A stretch of 47,634 nucleotides of DNA from Sedimentisphaerales bacterium. GTDB taxonomy: Bacteria; Planctomycetota; Phycisphaerae; Sedimentisphaerales; Anaerobacaceae. The notes under the pieces are model-generated. The model was not told the DNA's origin. It made no database searches and saw nothing but the letters and a program-made list of their open reading frames with translations. Location of the stretch: positions 1 through 47,634 of the forward strand of contig JAFGDN010000070.1 in assembly GCA_016932095.1 (NCBI GenBank). The letters are read 5' to 3'. The first letter of the stretch is position 1. Every line of letters starts with the position of its first letter. A program made the position numbers and the translations under genes. Of the stretch, positions 1 through 4,321 are shown one piece after another.

Positions 1-368
1 ATATTCGTTACTGCAGCCCTCCGTGGAGGTCCGGGCAGTGTCTCAGTCCCGATGAGGCGGGCCGACCTCTCAGCCCCGCTACCCGTCAAAGCCTTGGTGG
101 GCCGTTACCTCACCAACAAGCTGATAGGCGATAGGCCGCTCCCAGGCCAACATATTTTTGGTCATAAATCACGCGAATTATGACATTATTCGGTATTATC
201 GCCCCTTTCGGGGCGCTATTCCGAAGCCCGGGGTACGTTACCTATCTATTACGCACCCTTTCGCCACTAACCACCCTCTCGATTGCTCAATTGGATGGTC
301 CGTTCGACTTGCATGTCTTAGCCACGCCGCCAGCGTTCGTTCTGAGCCAGGATCAAACCCTTCAGTTT
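1..368 (-). rRNA. 16S ribosomal RNA, 5' portion (partial)
   Basis: Read on the minus strand, the segment starts near 368 and contains the conserved 5' block GGGTTTGATCCTGGCTCAG at about 340-358, followed by the conserved AACGAACGCTGG. The gene runs off the left edge near E. coli position 370, so about three quarters is missing. The site equivalent to the EUB338 probe region (13-30 on the plus strand) reads GCAGCCCTCCGTGGAGGT. It shares the GCAGCC start of planctomycete-type sequences and departs from the standard bacterial site. No 23S, 5S or tRNA gene is visible upstream. Confidence 0.95.
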
Positions 369-3120: not shown

Positions 3121-3220
3121 GTATTTGCGGAACGTTGGCGGTTAAACAGTGCTGTAACATCATTATTTACAAGGACTTATGGTGTTATGTAAATAATTTT
3201 CAAAAATTCTCACTTTTTCA

Positions 3221-3249
3221 TTGACAAAGAGACGAGGGATTGGTATAAT
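3221..3249 (+). promoter_or_regulatory. Consensus-like promoter of a structured RNA
   Basis: A perfect TTGACA (3221-3226) and a perfect TATAAT (3244-3249) are separated by 17 bp, the best promoter match in the window. Transcription should start near 3256, exactly where a run of stable hairpins begins. The next plausible start codon is about 480 bases downstream. Confidence 0.8.
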
Positions 3250-3255
3250 ACTCGG

Positions 3256-3366
3256 CCGTCGGGTCAAAAGCCCGGCGGTAACAGCCCCAGAAGGGGCAAG
3301 GCCCTAAACCACGTTGGGTTTAGGGTAGCGCAGAAGCGCAAGAGCAGTGGGGAGAGAAATCCCGGC
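3256..3366 (+). ncRNA. Five-hairpin structured RNA upstream of an HNH-AP2 endonuclease gene
   Basis: Hairpins follow one another with almost no spacer. GCCGTCGGG/CCCGGCGGT (255-263 with 271-279 of the 3200s) is a 9-bp stem. GCCCC/GGGGC (3284-3288, 3293-3297) has an AGAA loop. CCCTAAACC/GGTTTAGGG (3302-3310, 3317-3325) is 9 bp. GCGC/GCGC (3328-3331, 3336-3339) again has an AGAA loop, and a short GGG/CCC stem closes near 3349-3363. CCCGGC at 3361 could instead pair with the first stem, giving a pseudoknot. The dense folding, the consensus promoter and absence of an ORF support a noncoding RNA. Placement upstream of an HNH gene recalls HEARO/omega RNAs, but that identity is not shown. Confidence 0.6.
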
Positions 3367-3482
3367 AAATGGAAGACAGAAGACAGAGGACGGAAGACAG
3401 AGGACAGAAGACAGAGGACGGAAGACAGAGGACAGAAGACGGAAGAGAAAATTGAGAATTTAGAATGAAGAATTCAGAATTT
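3367..3482. repeat. GGAAGACAGA tandem words and an AATTGAGAATTT-type repeat
   Basis: From about 3370 to 3447 the plus strand is a purine-rich tandem of GAAGACAGA/GGACAGAAGACA units. From 3449 to 3482 it changes to AAATTGAGAATTTAGAATGA-type words. The first family has a faint copy near 24283-24312, the second inside the coding region at 37972-38056. Confidence 0.65.
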
Positions 3483-3583
3483 ATTCCCTGCTACCTGCCA
3501 AGCCAGCAGGCACTCCCCCGACGGAGGAACCAAAATGGTTGGCTCCCCGCCAACAGCATGCGGGGATTTCCGCTGCGCTCCAA

Positions 3584-3722
3584 GAGGGCAGGCGGGGATA
3601 TTCGCTACGCTACGAAAAAAAGGTGGGTCCCCTGCTGCGGAACCAAAGGAGCGGGTTCTCCCCCGATTGCAAAACCAAGGGAGCAGCAATCGAGGGCAGG
3701 CGGGGATATTCGCTACTCTACG
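3584..3722. repeat. 31-bp direct repeat pair before the HNH gene
   Basis: A 31-bp sequence beginning GAGGGCAGGCGGGGATATTC occurs at 3584-3614 and again at 3692-3722. The copies differ by one base and are separated by 77 bp. The second copy ends immediately before the ribosome-binding site of the HNH-AP2 gene. GAGGGCAGGCG also occurs near 6952. Confidence 0.65.
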
Positions 3723-3733
3723 AGGAGCGGGAA

Positions 3734-4321
3734 ATGGAAACGACGGTTGTAAAAATCAGGATGAAAGTGCCGAAATGGCTGGACCGGGTTTGCGCGCGGC
3801 CTGTGATTGCTTACCGGAAATATAAATACGGGTACGGCTTTCGCAAGATACCGCTAACCGACTGGAAATGGGCGATGGTTGACGAAGAGGATTACTACCG
3901 GCTCAACGAGTTCGACTGGACGGCGATGGGAAGAGAAGGACATATTTACGCGGGGCGAACCGTATGGAACAAAAGAGGGAAAATGAAGACGATACTGATG
4001 CACAGGGAAATAATGAAGCCGCCTAAGCGCAAATTAGTTGACCACAGGAACAAAAACGCATTAGACAATCGAAGGGAAAACCTGCGACCGGCGACGCCAT
4101 CGCAGAACGCCTGCAACAGCAAAAGAGACAAATCAAAGACAACGTCAAAGTATCGAGGGGTGTGCTGGAGCAAGAGAAAGAAGAAATGGTTCGCGATGAT
4201 ACGGGTGCGAGGGAAAAGAATATGGCTGGGGTATTTCGACAGTGAAATCGAGGCGGCGAGGGCATACGACGCGGCGGCGAGGAAATATCACGGGGAGTTT
4301 GCGCAGTTGAATTTTCCGTAA
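3734..4321 (+). CDS. HNH endonuclease with C-terminal AP2 DNA-binding domain
   Basis: 195 aa. ATG 3734 is preceded by GAGGAG at 6 bases; the frame stays open upstream to 3539, but that part translates repeat sequence. Residues about 35-80 form the N-terminal module usual in this family ([16 protein letters not shown]). Residues about 85-120 carry the HNH core ([10 protein letters not shown] ... [17 protein letters not shown]). Residues about 135-195 are an AP2/ERF-type domain ([20 protein letters not shown] to [12 protein letters not shown]). Proteins of this architecture are homing-type nucleases that nick DNA and move themselves. It is complete and stands alone, without an intron or intein host gene visible. 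Its relation to the structured RNA upstream is open. Confidence 0.88.

Follow-up and report, generated by a model that had tools for sequence, protein, structure and literature searches.

The 47,634-nucleotide stretch of DNA analysed here, referred to as the window, contains a strong promoter that leads into an array of small hairpins upstream of an HNH-AP2 gene. We lean towards the view that the promoter and its tandem AGNA-loop hairpins constitute a portable mRNA leader, which an HNH-AP2 gene of selfish type would have acquired in this genus. The promoter would give rise to a transcript starting at about the first hairpin, and the unit would be an mRNA gene with a conserved hairpin array as its 5' leader, with mostly AGNA loops and with (C)AAG or short linkers; a variable spacer and then the ORF would follow behind the array on the same mRNA. 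Such a leader may guard the 5' end of mRNAs from multi-copy genes that are probably selfish, and perhaps regulate these mRNAs. In the window's genus, the passenger would be an HNH-AP2 endonuclease, predicted to be of the homing type, with turnover between copies.

The initial annotation had named TTGACA-17-TATAAT as the best promoter of the window. The promoter scan bore this out; the sigma-70-type promoter at 3221-3249 on the plus strand (TTGACA at 3221-3226, a 17-nt spacer and TATAAT at 3244-3249) was the sole 12/12 consensus match in the window, and a TG was marked ahead of its second hexamer. Promoters resembling it recur ahead of other RNA copies. The RNA of 3250-3372 (123 nt) showed a folding energy of -64.9 kcal/mol and a z-score of -6.67, which was reached by 0 of 200 shuffles, and none of the 2376 tiles of the window, on either strand, folded as low as the 120-nt stretch from 3250. 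The approximately 110 nt of consecutive hairpins with two AGAA loops described earlier were found again as five plus-strand hairpins, two of which carried this loop. In particular, folding placed the 5'-terminal hairpin hp1 (10 bp, 3255-3279) approximately 6 nt past the -10 box and placed an hpB-type hairpin, GCCCC-AGAA-GGGGC followed by AAGG, at 3284-3297. The next hairpin, of 10 bp (GCCCUAAACC...GGUUUAGGGU, 3301-3326), was specific to the window copy and partly common to contig C15. It was followed by hpA (GCGC-AGAA-GCGC and then AAG, 3328-3339), which occurs across copies in the covarying forms GCAC/GUGC, GCGG/CCGC and GCCC/GGGC, and by the 3' hairpin hpC (GGGA-GAGAAA-UCCC, 3350-3363), with the covarying forms GGAAC-AGAA-GUUCC and GGGUU-AGCA-AACCC. 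Upstream of several paralogues, we found the same succession of a TTGACA/TATAAT promoter, AGNA-loop stems each with (C)AAG, and a last hairpin. Because this layout of promoter, hairpins and ORF recurs at many loci, a chance origin of the unit is excluded, and the observation that promoter, hairpins, repeats and HNH-AP2 ORF belong to one unit was confirmed.

Rfam was used to identify known RNA families. At gathering thresholds, the window revealed only the 16S rRNA at the contig end (window 1-368, minus strand, the start of a gene at which the contig breaks off) and no HEARO. A cmscan of 3150-3780 returned neither HEARO (RF02033) nor anything credible even at E<=10; matches to U4 and the L2 leader were dismissed as chance. 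The suggestion that the array is a stand-alone copy of a known RNA was thus contradicted, as no Rfam family matches, and its separation from HEARO was upheld. The literature searched held no paper on the hairpin RNA or on leaders of HNH-AP2 genes.

We then compared homologous copies. The RNA modules were present at about 20 of 80 relatives, nearly all of which came from Phycisphaerae or other planctomycete assemblies, and seven sequences, all taken beside HNH-AP2 genes, served to build a first covariance model covering the last two hairpins. The homologues found by covariance model search covary: among 40 matches, in an alignment that was fitted to the model and leans towards structure, 95.7% of cells were paired and 8 of 9 base pairs showed double-sided, compensatory change. 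None of 500 shuffles reached any of five measures, and slid-partner controls were far lower. In a plain MAFFT alignment of three hairpins from 14 family copies, 94.2% of cells were paired, with 16 double-changed cells against a shuffled mean of 4.8. Covariation was found in the first and last hairpins of this set, with the middle hairpin invariant and one pair of the last helix usually unpaired; one of the five measures, the number of pair types, was not above shuffles. With a second covariance model, the RNA was detected within the order in 15 of 148 genomes, which all belonged to one family; within the class, it was detected in 5 of 198 genomes, four of which were in the same family and one of which was marginal. 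As judged from its covariation and distribution, the hairpin RNA is a new structured family, absent from Rfam and nearly confined to one bacterial family. The compensatory change in 8 of 9 pairs also counts for the leader reading.

Stems of this kind would covary as DNA too, and the hairpins might act in that form, as REP-like palindromes or as operators bound by a protein, possibly by an AP2 domain. REP/RAYT palindromes are short stems that occur in multiple intergenic copies, and the hairpins described here are likewise short, multi-copy, intergenic and often flanked by TAG; from general knowledge, TAG ahead of the stems and AAG behind them recall REP sequences. Their palindromic modules also vary in number and order between copies. 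However, the hairpins differ from REP/RAYT elements in being promoter-tied and in having a fixed orientation, which in the genus is constant relative to the ORF; hp1 covaries in the wider family with G-U pairs included, and many family copies keep an almost constant spacing from promoter to hairpin. We therefore consider a role as DNA improbable. Outside the genus, many of the 39 copies read have the first hairpin 6-9 nt past the -10 box of a TTGACT-16/17-TATAAT or TAAAAT promoter, about where a transcript would be expected to start, and this position counts for the leader. Bacterial mRNAs are known to carry 5'-terminal stabilising stem-loops of the ompA type. The array is similar in that the presumed transcript would open with a hairpin and continue with more of them, although it differs in that it forms a conserved family, has AGNA loops and (C)AAG linkers, and stands ahead of unrelated genes.

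The HNH-AP2 gene reported beside the RNA was identified at 3734-4321 on the plus strand by Pfam and paralogue alignment, with an ATG start and GGAG a few nt upstream. A start at TTG 3539 was rejected; the paralogue alignment places the homologous start at ATG 3734, and the protein therefore has 195 aa. Pfam revealed HNH_3 (7e-7) and AP2 (2e-11) as its only domains, without a RuvC match. The AlphaFold model (pLDDT 87.5) showed an AP2 domain like those of AtERF1 and TEM1 and no further RuvC-sized domain, and both results agree with the earlier statement that the protein is not IscB, lacks RuvC and carries AP2 instead. The HNH part gave no strong match to PDB structures, and I-PpoI was a weak one. 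Among 16 paralogues, D103, H104, N112 and N125 were invariant and H90 was nearly invariant, so that the window protein combines the conserved HNH His/Asn residues and the AP2 DNA-binding domain of HNH-AP2 homing endonucleases. It is probably, by sequence prediction, a homing-type, selfish-type endonuclease. As in the free-standing homing endonucleases with HNH-AP2 that phages and bacteria carry, HNH_3 is joined to AP2, relatives occur on viral contigs and scattered copies appear to turn over; the difference here is that a bacterial genome holds up to 27 copies (about 20 in the genome of the window), many with a conserved structured leader, of a kind for which no precedent among these enzymes appeared in the literature searched. 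Relatives with 41-46% identity were found on IMG/VR viral contigs (L078, L079 and L080), and such contigs are a possible source of the gene. A group I intron with an endonuclease ORF was also considered and rejected, as the window matched no intron family and the unit lies between genes and has a promoter of its own.

To relate the RNA to this gene, whole genomes of the genus were searched gene-blind at E<=0.01. Of 42 RNA matches in four congeneric genomes, 41 were followed by an HNH-AP2 gene in the same orientation at a distance of 73-383 nt, and the single exception had an E-value of 0.009; when the seed sequences were removed, 34 of 35 matches lay upstream of HNH-AP2. This sense-strand placement counts for the leader reading. 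Many dispersed repeats lie in the intergenic regions of the window's own genome, and the array might be a by-product of hairpin-rich repeats accumulating in such genomes; this is very unlikely, since the strong matches in the genus were confined genome-wide to HNH-AP2 loci and come with covariation and promoters. The expectation that RNA homologues sit beside HNH-AP2 genes holds in this genus and fails elsewhere in the bacterial family (0 of 39 copies). On genome comparison, the RNA is promoter-linked, and its tie to HNH-AP2 is limited to this genus.

A structured RNA in many copies per genome with an HNH gene directly downstream might suggest a guide RNA for the nuclease in the fashion of omega RNA and IscB. 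HEARO/omega RNA resembles the present RNA in its position by an HNH gene, its many copies and the existence of stand-alone copies. In contrast, the present RNA has no Rfam match, stands beside a 195-aa HNH-AP2 protein without RuvC, and is optional and not co-inherited: it was present at 34 of the 84 HNH-AP2 matches compared, leaving about 60% of those listed without it. When RNA presence was mapped on a tree built from 57 HNH-AP2 proteins, it required 17 changes against a shuffled mean of 18.8, with 108 of 500 label shuffles as low, a count that degenerate RNAs missed by the model would shift; well-supported branches alone force 10 changes. A strict RNA-protein pairing is hard to keep on this tree. 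Moreover, the RNA occurs in four genomes in which HNH-AP2 was not detected (G017, G023, G141 and G122). Inspection revealed no guide segment by the scaffold; in the window and in many copies the first hairpin follows directly on the promoter, which leaves no space for a guide on the 5' side, and many copies have the sequence beyond hpC on the 3' side in common. A guide function is the least probable of the readings considered. Of the initial proposal of a new RNA tied to a homing-type nuclease, the new, covarying RNA and its repeated link within the genus stood, and a role as guide or obligate partner did not, given the copies without RNA, the tree and the lack of an HNH-AP2 neighbour in any RNA copy read in 11 other genomes of the family.

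Outside the genus, the 39 copies were read with downstream DNA where the contig allowed, and three further loci had been read earlier. As the RNA label is scattered on the protein tree and none of the 39 copies precedes HNH-AP2, the leader appears independent of its passenger. In genomes that have both, the RNA and HNH-AP2 lie apart; in G092, 13 HNH-AP2 matches and four RNA copies were found, none adjacent by coordinates. Five copies (L224, L226, L238, L250 and L253) precede the gene of a 'STGPRT' protein, a family of about 180-200 aa with the motif NRLNAQKSTGPRTxEGK..NSxKHGL. Its fold model was mostly helical and of low confidence (pLDDT 58), and the query used revealed no such protein in the window's own genome. 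Most copies precede dispersed, CAAACCCAAT-rich A/C-rich repeats; at L235-L257, approximately 100-350 nt past the RNA, a dispersed repeat tail carries ATTATGCAAAACAAACCCAAT and further CAAACCCAAT units. 'KTNPIQTQFKP' ORFs in these repeats were rejected as a protein family, as their frames shift between copies, which marks them as a DNA/RNA repeat; neither the STGPRT nor the repeat-ORF proteins belong to a Pfam or NCBIfam family. As judged from these copies, the promoter-plus-hairpins module is wider than the HNH-AP2 link and heads different sequences in different genera. Because most copies outside the genus precede non-coding repeats with no clear ORF, the leader role is not general. These repeats without a conserved ORF, together with up to 15 RNA copies per genome, would suit a small RNA that acts in trans on its own, or a dispersed element whose longer non-coding RNA begins with the array, with promoter sharing by HNH-AP2 in this genus incidental. 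We regard this as a less likely but serious alternative, against which stand the near absolute HNH-AP2 link in the genus and the rarity of terminator-like sites past the RNA.

Such sites occurred between RNA and ORF at 1 of 17 loci (expected 0.3), which counts for the leader, and the window unit has none on the sense strand; a Rho-dependent ending would be compatible with the absent intrinsic terminator. The RNA-to-ORF spacer is long and variable, which counts against the leader. In the window, it carries a plus-strand 14-nt tandem repeat of the GAAGACAGAGGACG type (about 3372-3450), which is dispersed genome-wide with dozens of recurrences and is not unit-specific. The direct repeat pair reported as 31 bp was recovered as 32 nt with 97% identity on the plus strand (3584-3723; copies at 3584-3615 and 3692-3723), and a weaker third copy is at 3552; similar repeats stand ahead of the ORFs in other copies.

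The leader reading is also weakened by the many genus copies without a TTGACA-type promoter, in which a TATATATAGAGG box takes its place. In the window, a AAGGACTTATG box lies upstream of the promoter on the plus strand (approximately 3161-3171, about 53-63 nt ahead of the -35 hexamer). AAGRACTTA boxes were found on the sense strand, <=620 nt upstream, in 32 of 58 HNH-AP2 loci of the genus, compared with 4 matches in 81 kb of downstream sequence. In other genus copies, with and without RNA, a TATATATAGAGG-type box follows exactly 69 nt after the AAGRACTTA box. This pairing of AAGRACTTA with an ATATAYAGAGG-type box upstream of HNH-AP2 genes (L085, L088, L091, L094, L097, L100, L106, L118, L127, L130, L131, L140, L141, L081 and L086) may represent an undescribed promoter or element end.

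Comparison of shared sites pointed to turnover of the gene, which counts for the leader. At several sites, the flanks were approximately 87-93% identical and the HNH-AP2 sequences there approximately 66-81%, and same-site comparisons showed that one species can have the RNA where another lacks it. Beside dapA, three congeners had no HNH-AP2 match; the left flank was unmatched at the same place, and the comparison therefore speaks only to the absence of a match beside dapA. We also observed that the HNH-AP2 orientation relative to the same neighbouring gene was opposite in sister species (L010 compared with L109/L118). A further possibility, which we consider rather doubtful, is that the promoter and AGNA array itself spreads, with a host or element protein recognising it as RNA, and attaches itself to different selfish genes, namely HNH-AP2 here and STGPRT elsewhere; if so, the leader would mark transcripts for mobility or control.

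Taken with the portable-leader reading, these results provide a covariation-supported RNA family, missing from Rfam, from a poorly studied planctomycete group. Searches for RNA-guided enzymes repeatedly have to decide whether an RNA next to a nuclease gene is a guide or a portable leader, and mapping RNA presence on the protein tree offers a way to do so. For the family itself, the finding would mean that one RNA leader is common to unrelated multi-copy genes.
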